Positions 3,056 through 23,037 of a stretch of 29,511 bases of DNA are shown here, in pieces. The translations under genes and the position numbers were made by a program. This stretch comes from a virus. The stretch is from IMG/VR virus record IMGVR_UViG_3300017779_005138, positions 1-29,511 of that record; one strand, given 5' to 3'. The notes beneath the pieces were generated by a model. The model was not told the origin of the DNA. It worked only from the letters and a program-made list of their open reading frames with translations, and searched no databases. Numbering within the stretch: the first letter of the stretch is position 1; each line of letters opens with the position of its first letter.

Positions 3056-4200
3056 TTATTAACAGTCCTCAATAAAATTGTATTATCATTCATTCTACCA
3101 TTTGGTGAAGTCACTTTAGTCTTTAAGACTTCTGTCCAAGCTTTGTCAACTTGATTTGGTGTCTTCGTCATAACAGTTTGAATAAACCCGAGTTGAGATG
3201 ATCTGAGTGTGCATTCTCGACTTAATTCTTTATCAAAGTTTTTAATGGTACTACCACTGATGATAAAGCCTTTAGGATCTTGAGTAACATACTCAGCTAA
3301 CCTCTTATATTTAGTATTGAAGACAAAGAGTCTTACACTACCAATTACATTTAAAGGATTAGTTGAAACCAACTTAAACGTTGCATCTTCTTTTTGATAC
3401 TTAAGTTTTGCTACCTGTTTGATAGCAGATTGTGGCTTTTTAATCCTAACTTTTCGTAAAGACTTTGTAGCTGACTTGATTTTATCTAAGTCTTCTAACA
3501 TTGCTTTACATTCTGCGACACGACGATTGAGTTCAGATTTTTTCAAATGTGAATAACCTTCAACAGCGTCAGCACATCGTTTAAGATAGGCATCCTCATA
3601 ATCTAGTAGCCATCCCTCAATCATCGTTCTAACGGGAATGGTAGCAGATCCACCTAACCCGTGTAACTTGAATTGATTGTATACATCGAGACTCGTCTCT
3701 TGTCCATCAATCCATTCATCTTCTAAAGATAAAAGGTCTTGCATAATCGTTTCATTAATCTTATTTTGCAATCTTTGCATAGGTGATAATGTAACAACAT
3801 TGCCTTTTAATTTCTTTTCGAATTCTTTTTCTTTTATAATCTTAGCGCCATCAAGATTCATCTTGCTTAGATAAGTTTTAAATCCTTCAAGGTACTGTTG
3901 AAATACTTCGTTATCGTATTTTTCGTCAGTCTTTACAAGTTCTGACCAATAAGCTGTTGCTCCATGGTGTGTGAACATGCTAAAAGAATATTCAGGATTT
4001 GCTAGTATGTTTTTAGCATCTACCTTTTTGAAGTTCTTCTTGACGAAAGAACGTGTTAAATCACTAATATCTTTCTTATCGACATCTTCGTGAAAGTATC
4101 TTATTACATGTTCGAAACCTTTAGCGAAAGGTACTGCACCGATTCCACTTTTTGAGACTCGAGCTATTGTTCTTTTTAATTTTTTCTTTTTGATAGCCAT
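3052..4200 (-). CDS. Basic conserved phage protein of unknown function
   Basis: About 382 residues from the chosen start, very rich in Lys, with no motif I recognise. I start at ATG 4198-4200 (MAIKKKK) rather than 21 bases upstream, because GGAG lies 8 bases before it and the ATG overlaps the stop of the 26-residue membrane peptide in a TAATG junction. The N-terminus is a poly-lysine stretch. The middle (roughly 200-260) is predicted helical with many Glu/Lys. The C-terminal third mixes strands and helices. Position between the lysis/small-gene block and gp33 suggests a nucleic-acid or virion role, but nothing in the sequence proves it. Confidence 0.75.
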   Translation of the reverse strand: MAIKKKKLKRTIARVSKSGIGAVPFAKGFEHVIRYFHEDVDKKDISDLTRSFVKKNFKKVDAKNILANPEYSFSMFTHHGATAYWSELVKTDEKYDNEVFQQYLEGFKTYLSKMNLDGAKIIKEKEFEKKLKGNVVTLSPMQRLQNKINETIMQDLLSLEDEWIDGQETSLDVYNQFKLHGLGGSATIPVRTMIEGWLLDYEDAYLKRCADAVEGYSHLKKSELNRRVAECKAMLEDLDKIKSATKSLRKVRIKKPQSAIKQVAKLKYQKEDATFKLVSTNPLNVIGSVRLFVFNTKYKRLAEYVTQDPKGFIISGSTIKNFDKELSRECTLRSSQLGFIQTVMTKTPNQVDKAWTEVLKTKVTSPNGRMNDNTILLRTVNK

Positions 4201-8143: not shown

Positions 8144-8434
8144 CTAAACAGCAAAGGATTCACCACAACCACATGATGCCTTTGCATTGGGATTTACTAC
8201 CTTGAGATAGGATCCACCCAATTCTTGAACATAATCAATCGTGCATCCAAACACGAACATCTCTGCTATTGGATTAAGCCATAGGTTGCCTATGACAGCT
8301 TCTTGATCTGTAGTTCCCCATTCATATTGGAAACCAGAACATCCACCACCTTTGACAGTAAGCGAAACGTTTGGCTTTCCAACTGAAGCTAAATAGTACT
8401 TAGCAGAATCAGTTAATTTAATTGGTGCATTCAT
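8144..8434 (-). CDS. HesB/IscA-family A-type Fe-S cluster carrier
   Basis: 96 residues with the three conserved cysteines of A-type carriers: Cys32 in GGGCSGFQY and Cys88/Cys90 in SCGCGESF. An extra Cys sits at 64. Family members (IscA, ErpA, SufA) accept [2Fe-2S] or [4Fe-4S] clusters and pass them to apo-enzymes. They are typically about 105 residues, so this one is slightly short but complete. No ribosome site is evident before the ATG. It follows the tRNA gene by 33 bp on the same strand. A phage copy could mature a phage or host Fe-S enzyme, but the client is not identifiable here. Confidence 0.88.
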   Translation of the reverse strand: MNAPIKLTDSAKYYLASVGKPNVSLTVKGGGCSGFQYEWGTTDQEAVIGNLWLNPIAEMFVFGCTIDYVQELGGSYLKVVNPNAKASCGCGESFAV

Positions 8435-8467: not shown

Positions 8468-8552
8468 TGGCTCTGGGGGGTGGAGTCGAACCACCACGTC
8501 GTTAGACAATACATAAACAGTGTATCGCGTCTACCAATTCCGCCACCCCAGA
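8468..8552 (-). tRNA. tRNA with GUU (Asn) anticodon in a class-II, Leu-like body, CCA encoded
   Basis: 85 nt including CCA. Acceptor stem 8546-8552 with 8472-8478 (TCTGGGG/CCCCAGA) is perfect. The D arm is GCG..CGC with GG in the loop. The anticodon stem is ATACA/TGTAT with loop CTGTTTA, giving anticodon GTT at 8516-8518. The variable arm is long (TGTC-TAAC-GACG), and the T arm is GGTGG-TTCGACT-CCACC. The body up to GGCGGAATTGGTAGACGCG is the signature of bacterial tRNA-Leu, but the anticodon is Asn and the discriminator base is G73, which AsnRS of E. coli uses and LeuRS (A73) does not. It lies 5 bp after the synthetase-like gene and is probably co-transcribed with it. Confidence 0.9.
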
Positions 8553-8557
8553 TCAGA

Positions 8558-9385
8558 TTATGCAGCTTTAGCTTGTCTCCATTCTTCAGCCTTTTCGACT
8601 GCTGCTATCATTCTTGTCATACCGATTCCACCACCGACTCGAGGAAAGAAATCCATAGCTAAGAAGTCTTTAAGCTCTTGTTCAACTCTATCTTTTCCAA
8701 ATAACTTATAAAGAAGTTCAGCGTACTTACCTTCACTAATTGTATGGAACGTATGAGACATTTGCTCTTTATCAGTACTTCTTTCTGCAGAACCGATTGT
8801 TTCCATACCGTTTAATATTACATCAATCTTCTTACTTGTAAGTTCATCGTTATGGCGTGACATATTCCAGAATGGTGATGTAAATTCTGGAAAGTTTGTT
8901 ATCATTCCCCAACCAATCTCGTCTTCGTGCTCATTCTCAATCTCTTCAACTTCAAATTGATCTTGCCACTCCTTGTATGTTCTAATATCTAGCTCAGGAA
9001 AACCAAGATATTCACATAGTTCTATCTCCATGGCTTTAAGATCATTAATATCTCCTGGAAATTCAAATTCAAACATTGGAAATATGGTTTCATGTCGTCC
9101 TTCTACTGGCCTTGGTTCCTGTCTGTAGGAAGTCGAGATACAAAAAAACCCGTTCTCTGACGGGTTGGTTAATAACTCATATTCTAGCCACATTTGTCCC
9201 GTCTGCGGGAGCGGCCATATATTACCATTATATTGATATGTTGCTACTGTTTCTGGATCCTCACAAGCTGCTAATATACTCAGTCTATTTTGAGTATGAA
9301 CTTCATGGAACCCTTTAGATAAAAAAAAGGACCTTAAAAGGTCCGCTGTTTTAGTAAATTTTTGTGGTTTAATTAGCGATGTCAT
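8558..9385 (-). CDS. Class II aminoacyl-tRNA synthetase core, AsnRS/AspRS-like, no anticodon domain
   Basis: 275 residues covering only a class II catalytic core. Motif 1 is around LRSFFLSKGFHEVHT (residues 17-31). Motif 2 is around STSYRQEPRPVEGRHETIFP (84-103), with the class II Arg and HE. The NGMETIGSAERSTD stretch (192-205) matches the Asp/Asn/Lys-RS NGxEixxGxxR block. Motif 3 is GGGIGMTR (251-258). Full AsnRS or AspRS is over 400 residues because of an N-terminal OB anticodon domain, which is missing here. Such trimmed paralogues exist, for example the archaeal AsnRS-related asparagine synthetase. Either charging of the adjacent GUU tRNA or amino-acid amidation would fit. The ribosome site AGGAG precedes ATG, and a TATAAATA box lies 35 bp upstream. 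Confidence 0.82.
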   Translation of the reverse strand: MTSLIKPQKFTKTADLLRSFFLSKGFHEVHTQNRLSILAACEDPETVATYQYNGNIWPLPQTGQMWLEYELLTNPSENGFFCISTSYRQEPRPVEGRHETIFPMFEFEFPGDINDLKAMEIELCEYLGFPELDIRTYKEWQDQFEVEEIENEHEDEIGWGMITNFPEFTSPFWNMSRHNDELTSKKIDVILNGMETIGSAERSTDKEQMSHTFHTISEGKYAELLYKLFGKDRVEQELKDFLAMDFFPRVGGGIGMTRMIAAVEKAEEWRQAKAA

Positions 9386-10409: not shown

Positions 10410-10464
10410 ATATATAGTTATTATGAAAAAGAATTCTAAAAAATTAATTAAAAAGGTAAATGCT

Positions 10465-10920
10465 ATGGATATGAGTATTCAATGGTTGTTAACTAATCCA
10501 GTTACTACTGCTTTAGTAGGACTAATTATTTTTTATATCGGTCTAAAAATGTTTTCAGGCGGTATGAAATCAATGGGTAATATGGAACATCTACAATACT
10601 TTTTAGGGAATCCAATTTATATGTTCTTTGGTGGAATTATAATGACACTCGCATGGCAATCGAGTTCGTTATCAACTACAGCAATTATTGCGTTGGTCGC
10701 ATCTGGAGCTCTACCACTTCCAGCTGCAGTTGCTTGTGTATTAGGTGCAAATATAGGAACTACAGGAACTATATGGTTAGCTGGATTCTTTGTATCTGAT
10801 GGAATGCCGAAAGGTGATACTTTACGTATTGCAATGGCGCATACTGGAATGAACTTAGCAATGGCAATAATGCTATTACCTTTTGTACATCACATCGCTA
10901 AATTTCTTGGAAGATTTTAA
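10465..10920 (+). CDS. Na+/phosphate cotransporter-like membrane protein (single repeat)
   Basis: 151 residues from ATG 10465-10467, where AAGG lies about 8 bases upstream. A frame to 10423 adds 14 Lys-rich residues without a ribosome site. The membrane protein carries QSSSLSTTAIIALVASGA followed by GANIGTTGT, the paired signature of Na/Pi cotransporters (PF02690; NptA/SLC34-like). Full transporters contain two inverted QSSS repeats and a PhoU-like tail. Here only one repeat with about four helices is present, so it may act as a homodimer or modify a host transporter. Phosphate supply limits marine phage replication, which makes this a candidate host-derived helper gene. Its stop overlaps the stop of the opposing glycan gene. 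Confidence 0.82.
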   Translation: MDMSIQWLLTNPVTTALVGLIIFYIGLKMFSGGMKSMGNMEHLQYFLGNPIYMFFGGIIMTLAWQSSSLSTTAIIALVASGALPLPAAVACVLGANIGTTGTIWLAGFFVSDGMPKGDTLRIAMAHTGMNLAMAIMLLPFVHHIAKFLGRF

Positions 10921-11588
10921 GCTTCACTGAGGTTAGCAAAAGATACAGATCCATCTTTATTTTTCTTAACCTCAGACCTCTTTGTGTATAACTCAGTTGT
11001 TACGTTATCATCAACGTTTATCTTATATTTGTCATGACTGTGGTGTAACACAAACTGCACGTCCTTAAATTCTCTAAACATACTTTGCCAAACAGGTCTC
11101 CAATTATTTGTCAACCTATTATTATTTGTATTTCCTCTGTCAGATTGTAAAGCTCCGTTAAAATCTGATACGCTCTTCACGTTAAAATCAAATATAGAAT
11201 CAAACCCATACATATGGACTTCATCAGCCTTTAACTTATTACAAGCATAATGAGTAGCCATATGGCCACAATTAAGATCAGTATAGTTTGCAACATATTT
11301 AGGTAATACTGTATAGAACTCTTTAACTTGATGCGCAACCTTTACAAAGTGTTGAGGATTCATTTCCATCCAGTGTTTAGGTCTAAATCCTAATACCCAT
11401 TCTCCATCAAGTTCTACTTGTTGTTTAGCTAAAGCATTCATAAATTTATAGTCAACTATACACGTTGCATATTTTTCCGGAACCTGAAATGCTATCTGAT
11501 TACACGCTAGTTTTAACCCTCTTCTCGGTGCATCTTGATATAAAAAAGAATGATCACCATTTCCTATGATATGAACTACTCTCTTCAT
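10917..11588 (-). CDS. Glycosyltransferase-like protein (DUF115/GT42-like Rossmann fold)
   Basis: 223 residues from ATG 11586-11588, which forms TAATG with the upstream stop and has GGAG before it. The N-terminus VVHIIGNGDHSFLY and the following LKLACNQIAF look like the nucleotide-binding start of DUF115/MptE-like and bacterial sialyltransferase-like (GT42) enzymes. GHMATHYACNKLKADEVHMYGFDS matches the second Rossmann segment of these folds (quoted in part: DEVHMYGFDS). It is the last gene of the glycan module, converging on the Na/Pi-like gene. The exact donor sugar cannot be told. Confidence 0.55.
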   Translation of the reverse strand: MKRVVHIIGNGDHSFLYQDAPRRGLKLACNQIAFQVPEKYATCIVDYKFMNALAKQQVELDGEWVLGFRPKHWMEMNPQHFVKVAHQVKEFYTVLPKYVANYTDLNCGHMATHYACNKLKADEVHMYGFDSIFDFNVKSVSDFNGALQSDRGNTNNNRLTNNWRPVWQSMFREFKDVQFVLHHSHDKYKINVDDNVTTELYTKRSEVKKNKDGSVSFANLSEA

Positions 11589-12277
11589 TACTTTCTCCAA
11601 TAATCCTTTATCCAACTTTGTGGGTTATAAGTCGCCATTGGTGTAGTTACCGATTCCCTTTGAGCCTGAACTACATTAGGTCTTCCGTGAAAACACACTA
11701 TAGATGTCTTATCATCAGGCTTATTTGGATACACTTGATATTTATAGGATTTTAAACGACCTGGATATTCATGTTGAAGTAGTTGATATCGCAATGGATT
11801 CATATATCCATGTAAGAACTCACCATCTCCTCTATATTGTGACTTAACCTCATTGATATTATGGCTTGCGTGTGTCCATATACTATTCCACATATAATAT
11901 TTCCATGACATAACAGCAGATTGTAATACGTTTTTAAGATGTGGTTGATGATCGTTAACAGATCCAACATCTTCTATTCCCATGAAATTACCATCATATT
12001 CAAATAACCAATCTAAATCCCCTGTGATTAATGTATCTAAATCAAAGTATATTACCCGTTCAGATAATCCATGAGAACAATCAAACAGTTGTAGTTTATT
12101 CCACCAACCATCATATCCTTTTTTTAATATCTTCGTTTCGATATTTGGTACGTCTTTATCAGAAAAACATATAAATTTATGATCTATAGTAGTATTACGT
12201 TCTATAGAAGCTTTTAAATTAATTACATATTCTATAGGAAACTTAGTTCCCCACCATACACAAGCAACTGTTATCAT
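11588..12277 (-). CDS. GT-A-type glycosyltransferase with DxD motif
   Basis: 229 residues. The segment VIYFDLDTLITGDLDWLF (DLD at about 78-80) is the DxD metal/nucleotide-sugar site of GT-A glycosyltransferases such as GT8-like enzymes. SIVCFHGRP near the end resembles the C-terminal His block of that group. No signal peptide is seen, so it is cytoplasmic. It overlaps its neighbours by 1 and 4 bases. It probably adds a sugar to a phage or host glycan built by this module. Confidence 0.7.
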   Translation of the reverse strand: MITVACVWWGTKFPIEYVINLKASIERNTTIDHKFICFSDKDVPNIETKILKKGYDGWWNKLQLFDCSHGLSERVIYFDLDTLITGDLDWLFEYDGNFMGIEDVGSVNDHQPHLKNVLQSAVMSWKYYMWNSIWTHASHNINEVKSQYRGDGEFLHGYMNPLRYQLLQHEYPGRLKSYKYQVYPNKPDDKTSIVCFHGRPNVVQAQRESVTTPMATYNPQSWIKDYWRK

Positions 12278-12915
12278 AGTATCTCATAGTTCTCGTTGTA
12301 ATTATGTTTAGCTAAACAACCCTTTTCTTTTTGTATGGTTGTAAAATGATCTTTAGCTTCAGCAATCCATGGATAATACTCTTGCAACCAAGGAAAGTTA
12401 TGTACGTTTAAGAATACATCAGTTGGACCAGCATCTGTCTTAGCTTTTTCTATCAATAGTTTTGCACCTTCCGGAGCAACCATATATGCATGAGCTCCAC
12501 CAAAATAAGGCTTATGTACTAATGGTTGTACACCAAGAGTTTTAGGTGTGTTATAGTTTCCATACGAAGGTTTTCCCATATTTATAACTTTATCAAATGA
12601 CATATTAGGCAAATCACCTGTTAAAATTGCATCATGTTCAAATATGAATACTATTTCATTTGTTGCAACTGACATTTTCCATAGATGATAATGACCTAAG
12701 AATGCAGCCACAACGCTAGAATAGTTTGAAAAGTCACTATGAAATCCAGACGTGTTGATACCTTCATTTGTTAATATAGCAGTAAGGTCGTCTTTAGGGG
12801 TAAAGCCAAAAAATTTTACTATTTCTATACCTAACTTTTTTCCAGATTCAATACACCTATCTGCCACTTGATGAGACTTTGGATTATCATGAATTGTTAT
12901 AACATGTGCGCTCAT
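12274..12915 (-). CDS. GT25-like glycosyltransferase, copy A
   Basis: 213 residues with the layout of LPS glycosyltransferases of family 25: AHVITIHDNPKSHQVADRC at the start, GHYHLWKM in the middle, then IFEHDAILTGDLP (the EHD acidic site) and AYMVAPEGAKLLIEKA with DVFLN near the end. It shares this sequence of blocks with the next gene (12912-13625) and with 22052-22744, so the three are paralogues. It overlaps both neighbours by 4 bases. Confidence 0.68.
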   Translation of the reverse strand: MSAHVITIHDNPKSHQVADRCIESGKKLGIEIVKFFGFTPKDDLTAILTNEGINTSGFHSDFSNYSSVVAAFLGHYHLWKMSVATNEIVFIFEHDAILTGDLPNMSFDKVINMGKPSYGNYNTPKTLGVQPLVHKPYFGGAHAYMVAPEGAKLLIEKAKTDAGPTDVFLNVHNFPWLQEYYPWIAEAKDHFTTIQKEKGCLAKHNYNENYEIL

Positions 12916-13625
12916 AGCGTTGTTGTACTCCGTGTTCCTTGAACTTTTGTGTAAAAATCTGTAGTTACTCCTAGTTTGGCACCAACCAATTGTTTACACA
13001 TTAACGCATCGTTTGGCCAAAGTCCATGCTCTTTAACAAGTTCTAACATCTTTTCAGCACCTTCCCTTTTAATTATGTATGCTGAATTTCCAGCTAATCC
13101 TTGAGGCACGTTAATAGAATCTATATAAGGGCATGGAATAACAGCTTCTCTATGTAATAGTACTTTATCATAAAAATCTTGAGATCTTCTGGTTGCACCT
13201 CGAGGATCGTTAATTCCTATGATACTATAATTATTATCTGTCATATCCATTCTTAGTTTTTTAGTAAAAATAGCATCGTGCTCTAATACTAGTATCGGCG
13301 ATTCTATATCAGCACAAAACTTCCATAGTTTATAATGGCTTAATGCACAGGCGATCCTTGCATCTATGTTGATCGTGTTATACGGGCTCTTTGTTAGACC
13401 TGATTTTATATCATGTTCTACTGTTTCCCATGGATAATTCCAACTTATACCATTTTCCATCATAACTGTAGCAGTATCATTTGGTGTTACTGCATTAAAC
13501 TTTTCAATAGTAAAAAAATCTGGCATTAAAGACGATGAGTGTAATCTAAAATGAGATTCTATACATTTATTAGCGGCTTGATTAGATTCTGGGTGATCTG
13601 GAATTGTAATTACAAATGCTCTCAT
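12912..13625 (-). CDS. GT25-like glycosyltransferase, copy B
   Basis: 237 residues. Same block order as its neighbour: FVITIPDHPESNQAANKC, SHYKLWKFC, VLEHDAIFTK, then SAYIIKREGAEKMLELVKEHG with NDALM. The strong similarity of the first 20 residues to copy A indicates tandem duplication. EHD is the probable metal or donor site. Cytoplasmic. Start and stop overlap adjacent genes by 4 bases (ATGA). Confidence 0.68.
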   Translation of the reverse strand: MRAFVITIPDHPESNQAANKCIESHFRLHSSSLMPDFFTIEKFNAVTPNDTATVMMENGISWNYPWETVEHDIKSGLTKSPYNTINIDARIACALSHYKLWKFCADIESPILVLEHDAIFTKKLRMDMTDNNYSIIGINDPRGATRRSQDFYDKVLLHREAVIPCPYIDSINVPQGLAGNSAYIIKREGAEKMLELVKEHGLWPNDALMCKQLVGAKLGVTTDFYTKVQGTRSTTTL

Positions 13626-14434
13626 GATGATATTGTAGTTCCTTTATTATGTGTCAAGTATTTTTGTAATGGTGATATCGCCCATACTTCATGCGATTGT
13701 CTACTAGCAATCTTATGACTTGGAAATCCTTCATTGACATGGTCAAAAGCATGACAATCTGTCCAACCATCATATATGTCAAAAATACCATCATCTTCAT
13801 ATAACTGTTTATACTTCTCCCACCAAGCGTTATAATCAGGATGCTGTGTATCCCACATTATAAATCCTGATTCCATGTGTTTATGCGGAGCTCTATTTAA
13901 ATAATGAGTAATACAACCTTCTTGTGCTAAAGATGGAAAGAAGTCTTCAGGTATCTTTTCTCTTATCACAACGTCAGCGTCAATTGATATTAAGTATCTT
14001 TCTTCTATAGTATTATAAGCTTCAATTAATGAGAAAGGTGCATGACAAAATCTAACAGCATCAAACTCATAATCGTATCCGTCCTTAAAATTTATATTAT
14101 TTTTATAGTGGTGATAATCATATACTTTAAAATGTTTCTTTATCATCTTACCACTAGATCTTTTTTGAAACTCTTTAATTTTTTCTATAGGATGAGGTAA
14201 GAATTCAACCTTTTCAGTGCTTTCGGGTAAGTTATCTCCTTCATAATAAACTCTCATAGAAGCATTATCTGGCAATAGTTCATTAGCTTGTTTAGCTAGT
14301 TGCATACCCCTGGAAATAGTTTCATCTTCAAATCTAGACCAATATCTTTTAGCTTTGTCATTAAGTTTACTAATATCGATACTACTAGCTTTTAGCGGCT
14401 TATCTAAAAATGTAGTTATTATTTTAAACTTCAT
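13622..14434 (-). CDS. Glycosyltransferase-like protein with DAD motif
   Basis: 270 residues. YLISIDADVVIREKIP supplies a D-A-D motif at the end of a hydrophobic strand, typical of GT-A nucleotide-sugar transferases. It is followed by HMESGFIMWDTQHPDY, resembling the acceptor-side block of these enzymes. The family is not certain. It overlaps the aminotransferase gene by 11 bases and the next gene by 4. Its place directly after the aminotransferase suggests it could use the amino sugar made there. Confidence 0.6.
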   Translation of the reverse strand: MKFKIITTFLDKPLKASSIDISKLNDKAKRYWSRFEDETISRGMQLAKQANELLPDNASMRVYYEGDNLPESTEKVEFLPHPIEKIKEFQKRSSGKMIKKHFKVYDYHHYKNNINFKDGYDYEFDAVRFCHAPFSLIEAYNTIEERYLISIDADVVIREKIPEDFFPSLAQEGCITHYLNRAPHKHMESGFIMWDTQHPDYNAWWEKYKQLYEDDGIFDIYDGWTDCHAFDHVNEGFPSHKIASRQSHEVWAISPLQKYLTHNKGTTISS

Positions 14435-15395
14435 TTAATAACCTTTTTACTTCATATGCTTTATCTCTAACAACATTTAGAAGTTCTCTTGGATCCACAT
14501 TAACATAAAACACAGACTCGCTCATACCTTTTGCTACATGATTTGGTACCCAATGATCAAACAGAGGTTGTTTTGATAAAGGCTTAAATGAATGACGTGC
14601 TGTAATTCCATTGCTATTTAACAACTCAACCATGGTGTCAGGTTTTGGATGTTTCATATCGTATACCCATACAGCTTTTCGATTATTAGGCATATGATAT
14701 TCTTCTGGTATTACATCATTGTATATGTCGCATATCTTATGTCTTTTAAACATGTTAATGCTATACTGTTCTAAAGATTCTAAAGCCATCGTTGCTTGAG
14801 AGTCTGGCATCCTATAATTAAAACCAATACGTTTATGATAATAATTATGTTTGTTACCAAAGCTCATGTTTTTCATGTCTTGAGCTTTTTCGATGAAGGC
14901 TTTATCATTACTTGTTATGATGCCACCTTCTTCTGCATGTATTATCTTGTTACGGTAAAAAGAAAAACAGCCTATATCGTATGTGCCTACTTCAGCACCT
15001 TGAGCCTCACACGCATCTTCAATAACTCTTAACTTATATTTCTTTGCTATATAATCAACACGATCCATGTCTACTGTACGGCCATATACATGTGTAATCA
15101 TTAATATTCTTGATCGCCATTTATTAACAGCCATGTCAAAGTGTTTTTCAACTTTATCTAAATCAATCAATAGATTTTCATCGCAATCTATAAAGACTGG
15201 AGTCAACCTTGCATAGTGTACTGCAAGACCAGAAGCATACATCGTAAAATCTGGAACTATTACTTGTGTATCATTCGGCATCTCTAAAGCTTCGATAGCC
15301 AAATGCAATGCAGCTGTTCCGGTGTTAGTGGCACATGCGTATTTAGTTCCTGTAAACTTAGCGTATTTTTCTTCTAGTTCTTGATAAGGAAACAT
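14424..15395 (-). CDS. DegT/DnrJ/EryC1/StrS-family sugar aminotransferase
   Basis: 323 residues of a fold-type I PLP enzyme. Near the N-terminus is FTGTKYACATNTGTAALHLA, the phosphate-binding turn. VIEDACEAQG (Asp127) holds the residue that contacts the PLP nitrogen. FSFYRNKIIHAEEGGIIT (Lys150) is the Schiff-base lysine followed by the EGG turn. The family converts 4- or 3-keto NDP-sugars into amino sugars. Slightly shorter than the usual 360-390 residues. The upstream SDR gene (15597-16553) looks like a 4,6-dehydratase and could supply the keto sugar, as in perosamine-type pathways. Confidence 0.85.
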   Translation of the reverse strand: MFPYQELEEKYAKFTGTKYACATNTGTAALHLAIEALEMPNDTQVIVPDFTMYASGLAVHYARLTPVFIDCDENLLIDLDKVEKHFDMAVNKWRSRILMITHVYGRTVDMDRVDYIAKKYKLRVIEDACEAQGAEVGTYDIGCFSFYRNKIIHAEEGGIITSNDKAFIEKAQDMKNMSFGNKHNYYHKRIGFNYRMPDSQATMALESLEQYSINMFKRHKICDIYNDVIPEEYHMPNNRKAVWVYDMKHPKPDTMVELLNSNGITARHSFKPLSKQPLFDHWVPNHVAKGMSESVFYVNVDPRELLNVVRDKAYEVKRLLNEV

Positions 15396-15397
15396 AG

Positions 15398-15595
15398 TTA
15401 GCCTTCTTCATGATTAAGATTAAGATAATCATCTATGCAAGTGTAAGCTTTTCCCTTTCCTAAAACAGATAGTTTAACCATTTCTTCAAAACATGGTTTA
15501 TATTCTTTGTAGTAGTTGACACCTTGACCTTCTAATGTACCATCAGGGTTTAAAGTTACCATTATTAAAATCCATCCGTATAATATTTCATTCAT
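15398..15595 (-). CDS. Small protein with hydrophobic N-terminus and Cys pair
   Basis: 65 residues: a hydrophobic start (ILYGWILIMVTL), a DGTLEGQG turn, then two cysteines about 18 residues apart (KPCFEEM, YTCIDDY). The same plan, hydrophobic strand or leader, D/G turn, Cys in a helix, second Cys near the end, occurs at 19641-19823 and 29041-29295. These may form a small paralogous family of envelope-directed, disulfide-bonded proteins. No known domain. Confidence 0.6.
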   Translation of the reverse strand: MNEILYGWILIMVTLNPDGTLEGQGVNYYKEYKPCFEEMVKLSVLGKGKAYTCIDDYLNLNHEEG

Positions 15596-15596
15596 T

Positions 15597-16553
15597 TTAC
15601 CAATCCCATTTACTTCCGTTTTGCTTATAATAATTTATAGTTTTTTTAACTGCGTCCTCCATACATACCTGAGGCCTAGTACTTATCGCGCCATACAACT
15701 TTGTGTTATCTGATTGAAGATGCCATATCTCCCATGGTCTAACCTTTGACTCATCAACTTCAATATCAATAGAATTATGACCCATGATTTTGCCAACCAT
15801 TTCTGCTAAGTCATATATCTTGATGCCATCTTCACTTCCCATATTATATACTTCACCCCACTTACCATTCTCTAATAAGTCAACTGCCATTCTTACAGCA
15901 TCACCTGCGTATTGGAAATCTCTAAATGAGTTATTACCTAATCGAACAGTGCTTGATTCTGATAACTGAGATATTATTTCAGGTAAAACATATTCGTGCG
16001 TTTCTCTTTCACCGATACAATTAAACTGTCTCATAGCGATAGCGTTAAGACCTGATTCCTTATGGCGTACTTGAACTAAACCATCTGCTGCAAGTTTTGA
16101 TACTCCGTAAGTTGAGTGAGGTTCTACTGGATCTGATTCTTTTATCTTTCCAGTCATATTACCATATATCTCTGCAGATGAAACTTGTAATAAACCTTTG
16201 ATGTTAACTTCTTCGCAAGCCGTAATTACTCTTAAAACCGAAGTTGCATTAATCTCAAAGAAGTGCATTGGCCTATTAAACCCTTCAGGAATATAGGGCT
16301 CTGCTGCATAATTAAAAACCCAATCTATATCATGAGCTTTGAAGAATGTAACTAACATTCTCCATTGTTGATTAATATCCCAATCTTCAAATAAAGCTTT
16401 TTCATGAATATGTTTCACAGAACCAGATACTAGATTATCAACGACTAATACTTTACAATTTCGTTCTTCTATAAGATAGTCAACGAGATGAGATCCTAAA
16501 AAACCTGCTCCACCTATGACACAGACATTAGCATCTCTTATTTCTCTATTCAT
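15597..16553 (-). CDS. NDP-sugar 4,6-dehydratase/epimerase (extended SDR)
   Basis: 318 residues from ATG 16551-16553, where GGAG lies 5-6 bases upstream. A longer frame to 16628 would overlap the upstream gene for 83 bases. Visible are the NAD site GGAGFLGS (14-21), SSAEIYG (125-131), and the catalytic YGVSK (Tyr149, Lys153). MRQFNCIGERETHEYVLPEI and the late RPWEIWHLQSDNTK (quoted in parts) match GDP-mannose or dTDP-glucose 4,6-dehydratases. The Glu in SSAE favours a dehydratase over a simple epimerase. It would feed a keto sugar to the DegT aminotransferase just downstream. Confidence 0.82.
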   Translation of the reverse strand: MNREIRDANVCVIGGAGFLGSHLVDYLIEERNCKVLVVDNLVSGSVKHIHEKALFEDWDINQQWRMLVTFFKAHDIDWVFNYAAEPYIPEGFNRPMHFFEINATSVLRVITACEEVNIKGLLQVSSAEIYGNMTGKIKESDPVEPHSTYGVSKLAADGLVQVRHKESGLNAIAMRQFNCIGERETHEYVLPEIISQLSESSTVRLGNNSFRDFQYAGDAVRMAVDLLENGKWGEVYNMGSEDGIKIYDLAEMVGKIMGHNSIDIEVDESKVRPWEIWHLQSDNTKLYGAISTRPQVCMEDAVKKTINYYKQNGSKWDW

Positions 16554-16842
16554 GTTCTCCACCGTTGCCTCTTCCATTATATCCATCAAATATTTGAGGT
16601 TTTCTCTTTGCTGTTTCAAAAGTTGCAACTGTAACTACTACAGCAGCTATTATACACAAGTGTGCGACCACTGAAAATCCCCATATCCACATACTACCGT
16701 ATGCAAGTGCAAAACTACTCGCCCACGTCCACGCAAGTATTTGTAAAATCATATGTCTTGCTTGTAAGCTTGGAATATTTCGCAGTGGATTATGATCTGC
16801 ATTCATTAACGTATTCCACATATTGTAAATTGCTTCTCTCAT
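16546..16842 (-). CDS. Small multi-pass membrane protein, function unknown
   Basis: 98 residues with two hydrophobic helices, roughly residues 31-54 (MILQILAWTWASSFALAYG) and 55-73 (FSVVAHLCIIAAVVVTVATF), followed by a basic, Gly-rich tail. It overlaps both SDR genes by a few bases. A membrane protein placed between two sugar-nucleotide enzymes could anchor or export glycan intermediates, but no family is recognised. Confidence 0.65.
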   Translation of the reverse strand: MREAIYNMWNTLMNADHNPLRNIPSLQARHMILQILAWTWASSFALAYGSMWIWGFSVVAHLCIIAAVVVTVATFETAKRKPQIFDGYNGRGNGGEHE

Positions 16843-17702
16843 TTTTCATATTCAAGTGCATCTCTGCACATGTCCTCTAATGTTTGGGTTTCTTTAAAAA
16901 ATCTTGATTCTAAAGGGATAGTTGAAACTGGAATATCTCCTGGTCTTCTTTCTTTAGACATAACTAAAAACTCTTTACCAGATACCTTCTTCATAGTATC
17001 TATTACTTCTTTAACTGTAACTCCATGTTTGGATCCTAAGCACTCTACTTTGTTAGTAGCATCTGCTTCAGTTATCCTCACTATACCATCTACTATATCT
17101 TTGATATGTGTGTAATTTCTAACACATGTACCATCTCGAGTATCATAATCTGTACCAAATAATGGCATAAATGGGTGATCGTTACCCATTGAATTTGCAA
17201 CTCTTGCAGCTTTTCTTATAAGATGGCTTATTTCATCGTCAAACTTATAAAAACCATTGTTGCCGCTTACATTATAAAATCTTACTAAACTATATTTGTC
17301 ATAAAATTGTTGAGTTATAAGTTCTCCGCCCCATTTTGTAGCTGCATATGCATTTGAGCCAGGATTAAAAGCTGATCCAGTTGAACAGTATATAAAATGC
17401 CAACAAGGAAAAGCTTCGATAATTTTTTTTGTGCCATTAACGTTAGTATCATAATAATCCCATGGTTCATCAACAGATGGGCCTACCTTTGTCTTTGCTG
17501 CTACGTGCACAACCTTATCTACGTTATGATATTTTCCGCTTATTGTTCTGATATCAAAGTTTATGTATTCATCACACCACATTGATATATCATTTTGATT
17601 GTCATTATAATCTGTTGCAAGAATCCAATGGCCTTTTTCTTTTAGTGCTTTACATATATGCGCACCAATATAACCAGTAGCTCCTGTTACCAATATTTTC
17701 AT
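16839..17702 (-). CDS. NAD-dependent NDP-sugar epimerase (GalE-like SDR)
   Basis: 287 residues. VTGATGYIGAHI (5-16) is the NAD-binding glycine motif. YCSTGSAF and NAYAATKWGGE give the catalytic Tyr119 and Lys123. The ends IKDIVDGIVRI and NKVECLGSKHGVTVKEV match UDP-glucose 4-epimerase-type enzymes. Slightly short for GalE (about 330). Its ATG overlaps the TGA of the 30-residue peptide (ATGA), so translation is coupled. Exact substrate unknown. Confidence 0.8.
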   Translation of the reverse strand: MKILVTGATGYIGAHICKALKEKGHWILATDYNDNQNDISMWCDEYINFDIRTISGKYHNVDKVVHVAAKTKVGPSVDEPWDYYDTNVNGTKKIIEAFPCWHFIYCSTGSAFNPGSNAYAATKWGGELITQQFYDKYSLVRFYNVSGNNGFYKFDDEISHLIRKAARVANSMGNDHPFMPLFGTDYDTRDGTCVRNYTHIKDIVDGIVRITEADATNKVECLGSKHGVTVKEVIDTMKKVSGKEFLVMSKERRPGDIPVSTIPLESRFFKETQTLEDMCRDALEYEK

Positions 17703-17791
17703 TGTATAAACAAACTAACAATGAAATTAAGCATAACAGTACCAACAACCATAGCAGTCATCATAATGAATAGTGTTTGTCCTTCAGTCAT
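17699..17791 (-). CDS. 30-residue membrane micropeptide
   Basis: ATG 17789-17791 behind a clean GGAG site and directly after the promoter at 17812-17840. Product: MTEGQTLFIMMTAMVVGTVM followed by LNFIVSLFIQ, one hydrophobic helix. The TGA overlaps the epimerase ATG. The arrangement of promoter, good ribosome site, one-helix peptide and coupled gene repeats that at 4200-4342. Translation is likely. Function unknown, possibly a coupling leader. Confidence 0.6.
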   Translation of the reverse strand: MTEGQTLFIMMTAMVVGTVMLNFIVSLFIQ

Positions 17792-17811
17792 TTAAATCTC
17801 CTTTTTATCCT

Positions 17812-17840
17812 ATTATACCATATTTGATATTATTTGTAAA
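17812..17840 (-). promoter_or_regulatory. Promoter inside the glycan module (TTTACA, 17 bp, TATAAT)
   Basis: TTTACA (17835-17840) and TATAAT (17812-17817) with a 17-bp spacer and GG before the -10. It overlaps the 3' end of the FkbM methyltransferase gene and faces the 30-residue peptide and the genes to 10917. It is the only clear promoter I see within the 15-kb module. Confidence 0.7.
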
Positions 17841-18513
17841 TAGGTAAAAGGATAATATTATTCTCTGGACCAGGTATTTCTGTGTATGTGGCTTCTAAAA
17901 TGCCCCATAAGTCTTTAGATTCTTTCAATTGACCTTTACCGTATTTTTCTTCCCATGCTTTTTGTTCTTCTCCATATTCTATATAGATCACAGGCATACA
18001 CTTTGATATGGTACCAAGGCAACCTTCTAGCACTAACCTATCTGGACCATCTACATCTATCTTTATAAGATCAACATTATCAACTTCTAAGTCATCTATC
18101 GCATATGCAGGAACGTTACCAGATTCAGTATTTATTACAGTCTTTCCGCCTCTAGTAATACTACCGCTTTTGTTCATAGCAGCAAAGTTATATACAGACG
18201 CTCTGGACATATCAACATTATAAGATATTCCTTTGAAATGATATTCTCGCATTTCAATCATATGAACATGTTGAAATCCTATCTTATGGAGTGCCATTCC
18301 AAAAGATCCCCATCTACATCCTACATCAATGGCGTTTCGTGTATTGGCTAAGTGTTCTTTAATTGCTGCAACTTGAATCTCAGCATCATTAGTTTTGTAT
18401 TGACCCAAAGTGCCTCGAGGATCGTGTAGTTTATCTGAGTTCAATAACCAATTATTATCGTATCTTTCTTGTGACCAATCGTTTGACTCAAACTTATATG
18501 GTTCTGGTTTCAT
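17830..18513 (-). CDS. FkbM-family methyltransferase
   Basis: 227 residues. AIDVGCRWGSFGMAL is the SAM-binding motif I. VDLIKIDVDGPDRLVLEG is the FkbM signature (family VDLIKIDVEGxE), here with Asp in place of Glu. IYIEYGEEQKA follows. FkbM enzymes O-methylate sugars and other small hydroxyl groups, and are common in capsule and phage glycan clusters. GGAG lies 8 bases before the ATG. The start overlaps the upstream gene by 20 bases. It likely caps a sugar of the glycan. Confidence 0.8.
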   Translation of the reverse strand: MKPEPYKFESNDWSQERYDNNWLLNSDKLHDPRGTLGQYKTNDAEIQVAAIKEHLANTRNAIDVGCRWGSFGMALHKIGFQHVHMIEMREYHFKGISYNVDMSRASVYNFAAMNKSGSITRGGKTVINTESGNVPAYAIDDLEVDNVDLIKIDVDGPDRLVLEGCLGTISKCMPVIYIEYGEEQKAWEEKYGKGQLKESKDLWGILEATYTEIPGPENNIILLPIYK

Positions 18514-19198
18514 TTACAGTTCTCCATGTTTTAAGAGGATTAAAACAGCCAGTGCCAATACTTATATGATCAGCACCTAAGTCTTTATAATATTCTGCGT
18601 GCCAAGCTTCTTTTATCCCACCACCAGCGATAACTTCTACATTTTTATATTGTGATTTTAGATATGTAATAATCTTTCGAGTATGCGGAAGTAATATAGC
18701 TCCGCTTAATCCACCCTTATCAGTTGGTAAAGTGTTACTTGCATGAATCTGCGTAAATCCCATATCAACGATTTTATCTAATAATGCATATGATGAAGTT
18801 GGTGGTACTTTTACTATACACCATTTTCTTTTTTTAACTGGCCATAAATCAAAACCTTTGAAATCGGTGGTATCTTGATGAACGTCTAAGTTAGGGCAAC
18901 TGATATTAAGCTCTATATTCTGGCTTTCTGGTACGATTGATTCTAAATTTATCCAATCATATTGATCTATTGCTGCAATACTCAATACTTCGTTAAAGTT
19001 TGTACGTTGTATTCCATATTCTATCCCACGATTTCTTAGGCCAATCTTATTTCTCCAGCCGTTTCTTGTGTATCTTAAAGTTTTTATTATTTGTTTTAGC
19101 AATCCAGGCCTTGGTTTGTATGTCCAAGTTCCAGTAACACTTACAGCATTTTTAAATTTTAAATAGTTTCCAAAGGGTGCTGATATAAAAGTCGTCAT
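18494..19198 (-). CDS. Dihydroorotate dehydrogenase-like FMN protein
   Basis: 234 residues, short against 310-340 for PyrD. Blocks of the family appear in order: KIGLRNRGIEYG (51-62), ELNISCPN (96-103), VKVPPTSSYALLDKI (129-143), IHASNT (151-156), GGLSGAILLPHTRKI (162-176), VIAGGGIKEAW (189-199) and HISIGTGCF (211-219). Together these outline an FMN TIM barrel. Class 1 and 2 enzymes oxidise dihydroorotate to orotate in pyrimidine synthesis. The usual catalytic Ser/Cys loop is hard to place in this shortened version, so activity is unproven. Its site among glycan genes is unusual. It overlaps the FkbM gene by 20 bases. Confidence 0.75.
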   Translation of the reverse strand: MTTFISAPFGNYLKFKNAVSVTGTWTYKPRPGLLKQIIKTLRYTRNGWRNKIGLRNRGIEYGIQRTNFNEVLSIAAIDQYDWINLESIVPESQNIELNISCPNLDVHQDTTDFKGFDLWPVKKRKWCIVKVPPTSSYALLDKIVDMGFTQIHASNTLPTDKGGLSGAILLPHTRKIITYLKSQYKNVEVIAGGGIKEAWHAEYYKDLGADHISIGTGCFNPLKTWRTVNETRTI

Positions 19199-19392
19199 TA
19201 TTTTTTAATTTTTTTAACAATAGGATCCATCCAAGTTACTTTATGTTCACCCGTTATAGTCATACTACCACCATAAGTTTCATGTGAATTAGATATCCAA
19301 GAGTTCTTGATATTACGTAACAACCACATATAGATTGGAACAATTATAATTGTTACGATTAAACATATTATTGTAAATATTTCAAAAGTCAT
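19198..19392 (-). CDS. Small single-pass membrane protein
   Basis: 64 residues: one strongly hydrophobic helix near the N-terminus (IFTIICLIVTIIIVPIYMWL), then a Ser/Thr-rich soluble part ending in basic VKKIKK. No known family. It overlaps the zf-CHCC gene by 11 bases and the DHODH-like gene by 1 (TAATG). Confidence 0.6.
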   Translation of the reverse strand: MTFEIFTIICLIVTIIIVPIYMWLLRNIKNSWISNSHETYGGSMTITGEHKVTWMDPIVKKIKK

Positions 19393-19639
19393 TGTCTAAT
19401 CCGTCCTTTGTGTAAGTTGTGCCATTAAAGTGCTTATCCATCTTTTCTTTTTCTGTAAGTTCTTTTCTCATAAACATAATATCACAATAACCGCATTGCA
19501 CATAGCCGTCATCTGGTACAGTATACCAAACTTTTGGATGTTCTCCATTTCCATTACACGAAATTCTATCGCTATCTACATAAACAACTGTCTGTATATT
19601 AGGTTCTTTTTTACCTTTTCCCCAGTTCCATATTCCCAT
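19382..19639 (-). CDS. zf-CHCC zinc-finger protein (NDUFS6-like)
   Basis: 85 residues. ISCNGNGEHPKVWY and GYVQCGYCDIMF give Cys28, His34, Cys49 and Cys52, the zf-CHCC pattern of PF10276. That domain is typical of small alphaproteobacterial proteins and of mitochondrial complex I subunit NDUFS6. The phage copy adds about 25 residues at each side. In alphaproteobacteria its role is poorly defined, perhaps in complex I assembly or zinc handling. It suggests an alphaproteobacterial host. It sits between a membrane gene and a 60-residue gene in the glycan module. Confidence 0.78.
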   Translation of the reverse strand: MGIWNWGKGKKEPNIQTVVYVDSDRISCNGNGEHPKVWYTVPDDGYVQCGYCDIMFMRKELTEKEKMDKHFNGTTYTKDGLDNDF

Positions 19640-19640
19640 T

Positions 19641-19823
19641 TTATTCCTCGATCTTATCTCTTACAAGTGGTTTACACCATGCCGAATAATTGAGAATCAA
19701 GTTCGTCTTTTGGTTATTAATTTTTTCAGCATACCATTTACATTTATCCATATTAGGATGGACTATCTCACCTTCAGCCTGATCACCATTCATTATCGTT
19801 AATATGAATACTAATTCTTTCAT
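19641..19823 (-). CDS. Small Cys-pair protein with hydrophobic N-terminus
   Basis: 60 residues: hydrophobic start (LVFILTIMNGDQAEGE), then NMDKCKWYAEK and YSAWCKPL with the two cysteines. The plan matches 15398-15595 and 29041-29295. Overlaps the preceding glycosyltransferase gene by 4 bases. Function unknown. Confidence 0.6.
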   Translation of the reverse strand: MKELVFILTIMNGDQAEGEIVHPNMDKCKWYAEKINNQKTNLILNYSAWCKPLVRDKIEE

Positions 19824-20557
19824 TTTATAATATGAGTCTGTCTTATCAAGTATTTTCTTCCTTGAGCTCCAGCAAAATGTACAAAAGATGCACTCTCAAA
19901 AGATTCTTTATGTAGTCCTACCATAAAATTCCATTTATAAGGCAACGTATAAGCTAATGGTATATTTTGGGATCTCCAATGATTCATATATGATTGATCT
20001 GTGTGTCTACCTCCAGGAGGCCTAGCTTTAGTTTTAATTGCTTCTGTGATGTATCTATTTAAACTTTTTCCAGCTTCTTTATCTACCATCTGCACACCAC
20101 CATTTATAAACTTTCCAAATGGCAAATTCATTTGACTTGCAGTTCCGCGATAATCTTTCCCTAAGTCTTCTACACCGTGATGTCCCTTTGCTTCTGGTAA
20201 TGGATCAGCCCATGGCGTAGCCCATATGTCGTTATCCAATACTACAATTCTGTCATAGGTATCATCACCCATAGCTAAGTATCTGATGAGAGTTGAACAC
20301 TTATTTTTCCCTCCCTTTGAGAAGTCATAGTCTTCACCTTTTGAACTATAGTTGAAGTATGTTATGTCTAAATCTTTGGGATATTCTGTTATCTTTTTGT
20401 AATCATATCCATGCTTTTCGCAATATCTTTCTACTGTAGGAACTAAATGAGATTTCATTATCTTAGCTCCTTCTACTGCATCAGCAGTTTGGTCTCCGCC
20501 ATAGATATATCCTGGAGTGTTACCTACTTCGACTTGTATTATAAGAGTTTTTTGCAT
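19820..20557 (-). CDS. GT-A-type glycosyltransferase with DND motif
   Basis: 245 residues. YDRIVVLDNDIWATPWADP has a D-N-D at the end of a hydrophobic strand, the GT-A metal site. FINGGVQMVDKEAG matches the later ligand block of GT8-like enzymes, and SFVHFAGAQGRKYL the C-terminal His region. Similar in plan to 25218-26003. It overlaps both neighbours. The acceptor is unknown. Confidence 0.68.
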   Translation of the reverse strand: MQKTLIIQVEVGNTPGYIYGGDQTADAVEGAKIMKSHLVPTVERYCEKHGYDYKKITEYPKDLDITYFNYSSKGEDYDFSKGGKNKCSTLIRYLAMGDDTYDRIVVLDNDIWATPWADPLPEAKGHHGVEDLGKDYRGTASQMNLPFGKFINGGVQMVDKEAGKSLNRYITEAIKTKARPPGGRHTDQSYMNHWRSQNIPLAYTLPYKWNFMVGLHKESFESASFVHFAGAQGRKYLIRQTHIIK

Positions 20558-21324
20558 GCTTCGTATACCATATCTACTGTTATATATTCGTTAGCTTCAT
20601 CACAATGTGTGCATGAATACGTTGCACCACATGGGGTTCGAGGATGTTCATATCCTATGATTATATGATTATCATAACTCATGATATTAGAATCAGTAAT
20701 ACCACCTTGTATATCAACAGCTGGAATATTATATCCTCCTAATATATGAGTTACAAAACCGTGATAAGTTATACCAAGTTTAGCTCTACTCATTATCGCT
20801 ATTGATTTTTTTAAATCATCACTGTAAACATTTATGGCATTCTCTAAATCTGGTTCCACGTATTGACCACCTGGTTTTATTCTTACAACACGGTATCCAT
20901 CTTCAGTTAATCTATTTGTAAGCTCTTGATATTTTCTAAATCCCCAGTCTTTATTTCTCGAGAAGAAAGTGGATTTATAATCAGGATTTATTAAGATGAA
21001 GTCTGTAAAAGTATTTGTATCTAATTCTTCCTTAGTTAGTCTTACTTTATATTTAGATGGTTTAAATGGTCTCCATATCATTCTTTCGCCGAGTATGGTT
21101 TGTTCTCGACCCTTTGTATAATAATCAACGTGAATATCAGATGGTTCATCAGTGTCACGAGCATTCATTGTCAAAGAGTTTTCATCTTTTACCTTTGTTA
21201 TAAACTCAACATTATCGTATAGTGTATTCCAACCAGCGTGATATAACGGAACTATCTTTTTGCCTGTTTCTTTATATACTTCTTCAGCTTTTCCTAAAAA
21301 GATAATATCATCGCCTAAGCCCAT
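20539..21324 (-). CDS. GT9-like (heptosyltransferase-type) glycosyltransferase A
   Basis: 261 residues. It begins MGLGDDIIFLGKAEEVYKE, like the GDxI start of GT9/ADP-heptose:LPS heptosyltransferases. The second domain reads RVVRIKPGG, later IMSRAKLGITYHGFVTHI (the site where GT9 enzymes hold the nucleotide) and ends with a Cys-rich PCGATYSCTHCDEA that may bind a metal. AAGGA precedes the ATG. It overlaps the second GT9-like gene by 10 bases. With the heptose kinase and nucleotidyltransferase at 23368-24550 it could use ADP-heptose. Confidence 0.68.
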   Translation of the reverse strand: MGLGDDIIFLGKAEEVYKETGKKIVPLYHAGWNTLYDNVEFITKVKDENSLTMNARDTDEPSDIHVDYYTKGREQTILGERMIWRPFKPSKYKVRLTKEELDTNTFTDFILINPDYKSTFFSRNKDWGFRKYQELTNRLTEDGYRVVRIKPGGQYVEPDLENAINVYSDDLKKSIAIMSRAKLGITYHGFVTHILGGYNIPAVDIQGGITDSNIMSYDNHIIIGYEHPRTPCGATYSCTHCDEANEYITVDMVYEACKKLL

Positions 21325-22055
21325 AAACTTACATCCTTGAAATATTGTATTTGTTCGGCATGAGGATATTCACAAAAGTTCATCTTTGCACCACGCCTAA
21401 ATATCTCTCTTGCCATGAACGCAACGTTCCAACTATCAGGAAATCTCGGATCATCTTTTCTTTCTCTTATGTTTATATAAACATGTATCTTATTCATGGG
21501 CAATAAGAACTTTGCAATATGCATCATACCAGAATCAGCACCAACATGTAAACTTGCCTTAGACATAATGTATATTATATCTTTAAGGTTCTTATAATCA
21601 CCTTCACCGCCAACTCTTATTATTTCATAACCTAAGTTCTTATAATAACTTTCTATGTTTGGTATTCTATCATCACTCCATCTATCAACCTTACGGTATA
21701 GTTGACCAGCATCCCATTGAACTGTAATGAATCTTTTAGGTAAATCTATATCTCTCTTTTCAATATTCTTCTGAAGAGGAATAGTGTCAAGTTGTTTTGA
21801 ATATAATATATAAAATGCTTTATCTTTTATATTATCATAATCAAACTTACCTGTTGTCATACCTTTAAAATAATGGTGAGTTGAATTAAGTTCTACATCT
21901 CCAAACTTTACAAGATCATTTAATACTTGGAGATCTGGATGAGACATATGTAGATTGACAATATTATCATCAACCTTTGATATTGTATGGGCCAAAAAGA
22001 TAGTATCAATAGCATCGCCTAAAGGACGAGGACTTTGAGTTACTAAGTTAATCAT
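21315..22055 (-). CDS. GT9-like (heptosyltransferase-type) glycosyltransferase B
   Basis: 246 residues. PLGDAIDTIFLAHTIS at the start and IMSKASLHVGADSGMMHIAKF near residue 180 are GT9 patterns (GD at the start, G-DSG-HIA in the donor site). Shorter than typical heptosyltransferases (about 330), so the acceptor domain may be reduced. Tandem with the previous GT9-like gene. Donor identity is an inference. Confidence 0.68.
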   Translation of the reverse strand: MINLVTQSPRPLGDAIDTIFLAHTISKVDDNIVNLHMSHPDLQVLNDLVKFGDVELNSTHHYFKGMTTGKFDYDNIKDKAFYILYSKQLDTIPLQKNIEKRDIDLPKRFITVQWDAGQLYRKVDRWSDDRIPNIESYYKNLGYEIIRVGGEGDYKNLKDIIYIMSKASLHVGADSGMMHIAKFLLPMNKIHVYINIRERKDDPRFPDSWNVAFMAREIFRRGAKMNFCEYPHAEQIQYFKDVSLWA

Positions 22056-22744: not shown

Positions 22745-23037
22745 TTGAAAAACTCTTCTGAATTAATTGCCTTATCATCTATCCACAAATCAAAATGTGG
22801 TTTATTACCTACATCAAGTTCGTGATACTTACATCCCCACTCTTTAAGTTGTGTTTCAGTAAGTTCTCTCCAATCCATTTTAGTTACAGCACCTCTTGCT
22901 GTCATGTATTTTATTGTATGTCCTTCATCATATAACTTATTAATCTTTTCAATCCTATTAAACATTGGTTTAGATTCAGCATACTTACCATCTTTTGTAT
23001 TACATATAGTTCCATCGATATCAACAATGTAAATCAT
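22741..23037 (-). CDS. Small HAD-superfamily phosphatase-like protein
   Basis: 98 residues. VDIDGTICNT gives the HAD nucleophile motif (Asp6, Asp8). YMTARG has the motif II Thr46, and LWIDDKA (Asp87/Asp88) motif IV. No cap domain. The compact form resembles capsule-biosynthesis HAD phosphatases. In an ADP-heptose route it could serve as the bisphosphate phosphatase (GmhB role), but its length (98 against about 180) argues against a direct GmhB homologue. Confidence 0.7.
   Translation of the reverse strand: MIYIVDIDGTICNTKDGKYAESKPMFNRIEKINKLYDEGHTIKYMTARGAVTKMDWRELTETQLKEWGCKYHELDVGNKPHFDLWIDDKAINSEEFFK

Follow-up and report, generated by a model that had tools for sequence, protein, structure and literature searches.

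We analysed a 29,511-nucleotide stretch of viral DNA (IMG/VR record IMGVR_UViG_3300017779_005138, positions 1 to 29,511; hereafter called the window), in which a synthetase-like gene and a tRNA gene lie in tandem on the minus strand. The protein-coding gene (8558-9385, ATG start) encodes a 275-residue AsnRS-like class II catalytic core of the family phrog_29758, a putative enzyme of the pyrimidine pathway. The tRNA gene (8468-8552), with a leucine-type body and a GUU anticodon, was identified by ARAGORN, Rfam (RF00005), our covariance model R2 and covariation among its relatives. The sequence places only a 5-nt spacer (8553-8557) between the enzyme stop codon and the tRNA, as the original prediction had stated, which implies a single transcript for both. 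Directly downstream of the tRNA, on the same strand, is a gene for an IscA/HesB-type Fe-S cluster biosynthesis protein (8144-8434, PF01521). The plus strand carries a short phage version of a Na/Pi-cotransporter-like protein (10423-10920, 165 residues, PF02690, 2.8e-16), and a look-alike of this protein adjoins the enzyme gene in the related locus L064. A long run of sugar genes (11588-25071, minus strand) includes several glycosyltransferase-like genes, a DegT aminotransferase, epimerase-like genes and an FkbM methyltransferase, together with a PfkB kinase (23368-24180) and a cytidylyltransferase (24125-24550) that resemble a split HldE pair.

The enzyme matches the Pfam domain tRNA-synt_2 (PF00152, 9e-15) and phrog_29758, whose function is unannotated (1.8e-143). 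The curated models of AspRS, AsnRS and asparagine synthetase A match it weakly and far below their cut-offs (TIGR00457 for AsnRS, 14.2 bits against 342.6; the NCBIfam model NF005055 for asparagine synthetase A, 22.8 bits and 4e-5 against a cut-off of 389). An AF2 model, built with 68 aligned relatives, folds into a single catalytic domain (pLDDT 92.6, pTM 0.90), and AsnRS heads its matches among the solved structures (2xti with Z 25.9 and an rmsd of 2.2 across 241 residues; Z 25-26 and rmsd 2.2-2.4 over about 242 residues for 2xti, 8h53 and 1x54). AspRS, archaeal asparagine synthetase A (Z 23) and GenX come close behind. The model can be aligned end to end with the AsnRS catalytic domain. In the relatives, the PF00152 match begins at profile position 24-28, near the N-terminus of the protein; this start, the length of 275 residues, the AF2 model and the structure alignment all show that the N-terminal OB-fold anticodon-binding domain is absent. 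The predicted class II core of the AsnRS/AspRS type lacking an anticodon domain is thereby confirmed.

We then compared the pocket of the enzyme family with those of AsnRS, AspRS and LysRS from the same genomes, with the archaeal AsnRS-related asparagine synthetase AS-AR set aside. E106 of the enzyme occupies the position of the AsnRS glutamate, where AspRS has an aspartate, and C41-E42 corresponds to the CEG loop in AsnRS. Also retained in the family are R202 as the side-chain arginine, D188 and E195 as the Mg residues, and R88 and R258 as the ATP arginines; these roles in the enzyme are what we take them to be from general knowledge of class IIb synthetases. R88, E90, D188, E195 and R258 are invariant across the family, and class IIb motifs 2 and 3 with the ATP/Mg residues are thus present. 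The original prediction had named broken ATP or amino-acid sites as evidence against it; the alignment reveals the opposite, with both sites intact. The AsnRS-type pocket and the intact ATP site therefore suggest asparagine and ATP as the substrates.

The enzyme shares with AsnRS the fold, the pocket glutamate, the CE motif and the arginines of motifs 2 and 3. It differs in being only 22-23% identical, in lacking the OB domain, in occurring in pyrimidine operons, and in its motif 3, which reads GGGIGMTR as compared to GxGxxER. In the tree, the enzyme family forms a separate clade (support 100/100) outside AsnRS, AspRS and LysRS. In a separate tree of 148 family members, the marine phage proteins (75 rows) make up one clade (support 91) nested within the cellular family. 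Two huge-phage proteins, from records of uncultured phages (LR756501, 735 kb, and LR756508, 484 kb), fall outside the phage clade on long branches; they are 45-51% identical, with no adjoining tRNA.

The tRNA of the window has the anticodon GTT by ARAGORN and scores 49.6 bits with RF00005 and 97.4 bits with R2, which includes it among its 21 sequences. It has the U1-A72 pair, G73, an encoded CCA end and the anticodon loop CUGUUUA, with U33 present and U37. The original prediction had considered U1-A72, G73 and a long variable arm as recognition elements: the first two are present, and the arm does exist, though in the window it is modest in size (13 nt, 3-bp stem). Across the tRNA copies, the acceptor, D, anticodon, variable and T stems are paired in 100% of 483 cells, and the stems have accumulated 108 double-sided changes, as compared to 27 in shuffles. 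In the D-arm region, identity with bacterial tRNA-Leu reaches 23/23, and the body of the tRNA is therefore Leu-like. The variable arm spans 13-41 nt in nearly all copies, rather than forming the short loop of class I, and shrinks to 6 nt only in L061 and L063. The arms of 28-41 nt (L017:4832-4938 and similar) are unusually long and often contain a motif like GTACTGCAATATATTTA. In such copies, ARAGORN calls tRNA-Asp(atc), tRNA-Glu or no tRNA, which we rejected as artefacts of the long arm, as the GUU loop is present.

Which features of this tRNA are under selection? U1-A72, G73 and GUU (G34-U35-U36) are found in all 45 distinct phage tRNA copies located by our parser; the one exception, L161 with A73, lies outside this set. 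In bacteria, the determinants for asparagine are the anticodon and G73, and U1-A72 is read by GatCAB (PMC9976931; PMC4206432). The loop around the anticodon is less constant: 6 of the 45 copies, which fall in at least three lineages on the protein tree, have C, A or G in place of U33, and position 37 is a pyrimidine, mostly U37, in 43. U33 and a purine at position 37 are near-universal in decoding tRNAs, and the combination of U33 and purine 37 (t6A37) expected of an elongator tRNA-Asn is not kept by the phage tRNAs. The retention of the Asn identity together with the loss of U33 and purine 37 thus points to selection for charging with asparagine, and not clearly for decoding.

The pairing of the two genes is widely conserved. 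A GUU tRNA lies downstream of the enzyme gene in 64 of 80 IMG/VR relatives (one of these loci, L067, is cut by the contig end), mostly 4-12 nt away; the gene and the tRNA overlap in L061, L063 and the MAG-derived L093. The Prochlorococcus phages P-SSM2, P-SSM5 and P-SSM7 carry orthologs that are 71-72% identical, annotated as “tRNA ligase”, with tRNA-Asn directly behind. Those of P-SSM2 and P-SSM7 (T4-GC 194, phrog_29758) are direct orthologs with the same tRNA, from which we saw no difference, and their previous annotation is only tRNA ligase or function unknown. In a reverse scan of IMG/VR, which used a pattern of the D-arm and the anticodon loop and not the protein, 100 stretches were returned and 80 were readable. 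The enzyme was upstream of the tRNA in all 73 loci with enough sequence, and the remaining 7 end within about 110 nt. The pattern was taken from linked tRNAs, and the scan therefore covers relatives of these. Chance adjacency is ruled out by the 64 of 80 conserved pairs and the reverse scan.

The converse does not hold, as 16 of the 80 relatives have the enzyme without the tRNA. The expectation that related phages keep the genes together thus stands for the tRNA, which was never seen without the enzyme, and fails for the enzyme, so that the counter-evidence named in the original prediction, one gene without the other, was found in one direction. In three long tRNA-less phage contigs (118, 147 and 202 kb), no GUU tRNA of this type was detected elsewhere, although the contig of the locus L044 has an ordinary tRNA-Asn. 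A hidden partner tRNA was also sought; the hits that we read in five cellular genomes and in the tRNA-less viral and huge-phage records were Leu-, Tyr- or Ser-type and ordinary tRNAs. L091 retains a remnant behind the enzyme gene (3856-3890), in which only the acceptor strands TCCGGGGT-CCCCCGGAGCCA and CCA are left, and it looks as though the interior of the tRNA had been cleanly deleted. The divergent L161, at the base of the phage clade, carries a GUU tRNA 210 nt downstream with an imperfect acceptor end and A73, and is labelled as tRNA-less in the tree. The tRNA label on the tree apparently fits one gain at the base of the phage clade and several losses. Two loci with no GUU tRNA have a permuted, two-piece tmRNA of the alphaproteobacterial type just behind the enzyme gene (L077:4868-5165 and L084:4861-5158; RF01849, 131-152 bits; RF04321), which suggests an alphaproteobacterial host.

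We also scanned genome contigs, which gave 125 loci, of which 80 were kept; these include phage contigs in MAGs. The cellular family, about 50-62% identical, is found in Bacteroidota, Patescibacteria, Midichloriaceae, Myxococcota, DPANN archaea and Pasteurella atlantica. None of the cellular loci has an adjoining tRNA, and five genomes contain no such GUU tRNA among the hits read. The neighbours of many cellular homologs are instead pyrimidine genes, encoding OMP decarboxylase, an orotate or small phosphoribosyltransferase, and dihydroorotate dehydrogenase (confirmed with Pfam). With profiles built from these neighbours, at least one pyr gene was detected within the few kilobases fetched for 26 of 72 cellular loci, and none in the short stretch fetched for the other 46. 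In a survey of the Patescibacteria, the phylum of one enzyme-bearing genome, the gene occurs in only 3 of 145 genomes, a number too small for a correlation test there. In Pasteurella atlantica (L136; NZ_CP074346, 1937296-1944105), the enzyme gene shares a cassette with a small PyrE-like gene and a second PyrF (86 bits, besides the 151-bit copy). The cassette is similar to the phage versions and was probably acquired horizontally.

The phages show the same association, with a pyrD-, pyrE- or pyrF-type gene on 18 phage records, including the window. The window encodes a 234-residue protein resembling dihydroorotate dehydrogenase (PyrD-like, 18494-19198; PF01180, 1e-11) on the same strand as the enzyme and 9 kb away. 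In L017, L019 and L021, the gene immediately before that of the enzyme is PyrD-like and of the same family, and the window protein matches the profile of this family, which includes the window sequence itself, at 1.1e-89. In these three loci and in L088, a PyrD-like gene lies 65 nt upstream of the enzyme, and L093 carries a PyrD-like gene as well. A PyrE-like phosphoribosyltransferase adjoins or lies near the enzyme in ten phage loci, and in the tRNA-less L043 its gene follows 13 nt downstream. The PyrD-like and small PyrE-like queries gave distant hits or none in the phage collection.

How complete is the pyrimidine pathway in the cells with this enzyme? In a presence/absence survey of 25 enzyme-bearing genomes, scored as present over the cut-off, PyrB is present in one (which thus has both the enzyme and PyrB), CarA in two, and PyrC of the multi or dimer type in none. 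PyrF is present in 20, and the five genomes lacking it are small CPR/DPANN genomes. The sub-cut-off PyrB hits, in three genomes, score 116-148 bits, in the range expected for ornithine carbamoyltransferases; sub-cut-off PyrC-family hits occur in seven genomes, and the six read by eye are allantoinase- or dihydropyrimidinase-like. As controls, PyrB and CarA were found in 14 of 14 reference genomes. In the order of G011, one of the enzyme-bearing genomes, PyrB is present in 89 of 118 genomes without the gene, and G011 itself has none. Most of the genomes surveyed are MAGs, in which any one missing gene may reflect a gap; this weakens each individual absence and leaves the pattern intact. Pasteurella atlantica, the sole record labelled complete among those checked, has the enzyme, PyrD, a PyrE-like protein and two PyrF copies, and lacks CarA, PyrC and any PyrB over the cut-off. 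The enzyme is thus distributed in a complementary manner to PyrB, CarA and PyrC across the 25 genomes. AsnRS is over the cut-off in 13 of them, and we therefore rejected the reading that the cellular enzyme simply replaces AsnRS.

Textbooks present a single, universal route of de novo pyrimidine synthesis, which runs via carbamoyl phosphate and carbamoyl-aspartate and is catalysed by CarAB, PyrB, PyrC, PyrD, PyrE and PyrF. In the enzyme-bearing genomes, the later enzymes are retained and CarA, PyrB and PyrC are missing, with a class II synthetase-like protein in their stead. The operon context and the absence of these three support this position in the pathway. We propose that the protein derives from AsnRS and serves in pyrimidine biosynthesis, and that it is not primarily an aminoacyl-tRNA synthetase for translation, a reading that we hold, as a whole, with evenly balanced confidence. 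In cells, it would take the place of carbamoyl-phosphate synthetase, aspartate carbamoyltransferase and dihydroorotase, and its product, which we infer to be dihydroorotate, would be delivered to PyrD, PyrE and PyrF. Adding CO2 to asparagine (C4H8N2O3) and removing H2O gives exactly the formula of dihydroorotate (C5H6N2O4), and we therefore propose that the enzyme makes dihydroorotate from asparagine, bypassing CarAB, PyrB and PyrC. Asparagine would be bound in the AsnRS-type pocket and activated with ATP, and the ring would be closed with CO2 or bicarbonate. The chemistry may pass through a carbamate of the amino group to an N-carboxyanhydride or a mixed anhydride, with the side-chain amide closing the ring. 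This exact reaction, from asparagine, CO2 or bicarbonate, and ATP to dihydroorotate, is put forward tentatively and with some doubt. Our literature search, which covered open-access PMC, found no description of such an enzyme or pathway.

What, then, would the phages gain? They may carry the enzyme, often with PyrD-like or PyrE-like genes, for making nucleotides, and an Asn-identity tRNA would have been added behind the gene in the phage clade. As this tRNA occurs only with the enzyme and keeps its features for charging with asparagine, it may be a provider or holder of asparagine, delivering it to the enzyme as Asn-tRNA instead of decoding AAC/AAU. This role is a doubtful possibility. Such a store might be useful where free asparagine is scarce, for example because the host makes asparagine only on tRNA.

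The original prediction of a self-contained charging module is the main rival: the core would attach asparagine to its own tRNA, which would then decode AAC/AAU during infection. Much of it stands, namely the Asn-type core with E106 and its intact sites, and the conserved pairing with a GUU tRNA. The linkage is exclusive and tight, and GUU with G73 is the bacterial Asn identity set, with U1-A72 as the GatCAB signal (PMC9976931). The tight linkage in phages fits a charging enzyme and counts against the pyrimidine proposal, which also leaves unaccounted for why the tRNA partner exists in phages and not in cells. As the main function, however, charging for translation is unlikely: the cellular family sits in pyrimidine operons without the tRNA, many of its genomes also have a bona fide AsnRS, the enzyme has no anticodon domain, U33 is lost in several lineages and U37 is nearly everywhere, and 16 relatives lack the tRNA.

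A combination of both functions, which we likewise consider unlikely, would be tRNA-dependent pyrimidine synthesis: the core would convert tRNA-bound or adenylated asparagine and CO2 to dihydroorotate, and the cellular enzymes would use free asparagine. The tRNA would be charged by the enzyme, the host AsnRS, or AspRS with GatCAB, reading GUU, G73 and U1-A72. An N-carboxyanhydride might be the intermediate, and one step would replace CarAB, PyrB and PyrC.

A stand-alone asparagine synthetase, converting aspartate to asparagine with the tRNA as a bystander or acceptor, would resemble the archaeal AS-AR (3reu, 3rex, 3p8t), an aaRS paralog used in metabolism, which is likewise a class IIb core of about 290 residues without an anticodon domain. 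The size and the fold (3reu/3rex, Z 23) agree, as does the weak match to NF005055. This function is quite unlikely, as the identity is 20-23%, the structure match is somewhat better to AsnRS, and AS-AR acts on aspartate, whereas the enzyme family has the AsnRS-type glutamate in place of the AspRS aspartate. The pyrimidine context and the loss of CarA, PyrB and PyrC would also stay unexplained, and we know of no pyrimidine context for AS-AR.

The same genomic evidence could be explained by a narrower role, in which the enzyme replaces part of the early pathway, for example as an ATP-driven dihydroorotase whose substrate, N-carbamoyl-aspartate, comes from synthesis or import by another route. 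Carboxylate adenylation followed by ring closure suits the fold. This is very unlikely, as CarA, PyrB and PyrC are absent at similar frequencies, and a partial replacement would therefore need another source of carbamoyl-aspartate. Finally, the tRNA could be an anti-defence replacement, an unusual tRNA-Asn that escapes host anticodon nucleases through its altered loop; as its Leu-like body may suit the host AsnRS poorly, it would depend on a dedicated charging enzyme. This would fit an unchanging GUU with variation at positions 33 and 37, but it is highly improbable, since it leaves the pyrimidine operons and the phage PyrD/PyrE-like genes unexplained, the tRNA misses optimal decoding features, and an unsystematic look found no link to defence or counter-defence genes.

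The proposed pyrimidine enzyme would be one of several aaRS relatives with non-translational tasks. EpmA/GenX/PoxA are core-only relatives of this kind, and EpmA/GenX are similar by structure match as well; HisZ is another core-only paralog with a non-translational job. All of these use other substrates, and we know of no linkage of EpmA/GenX/PoxA or HisZ to a tRNA gene. By its sequence, the enzyme is an aaRS paralog and thus of a known kind, and its newness is conditional on the function that we infer. If the proposal is correct, it would represent a new route to UMP, in which a synthetase-derived enzyme replaces the first three steps. This would account for the pyrimidines of bacteria that have PyrD, PyrE and PyrF without CarAB, PyrB and PyrC. 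Marine phages, including the model cyanophage P-SSM2, would then carry a pyrimidine shortcut, and serving an enzyme of this kind exclusively would be a novel function for a tRNA.
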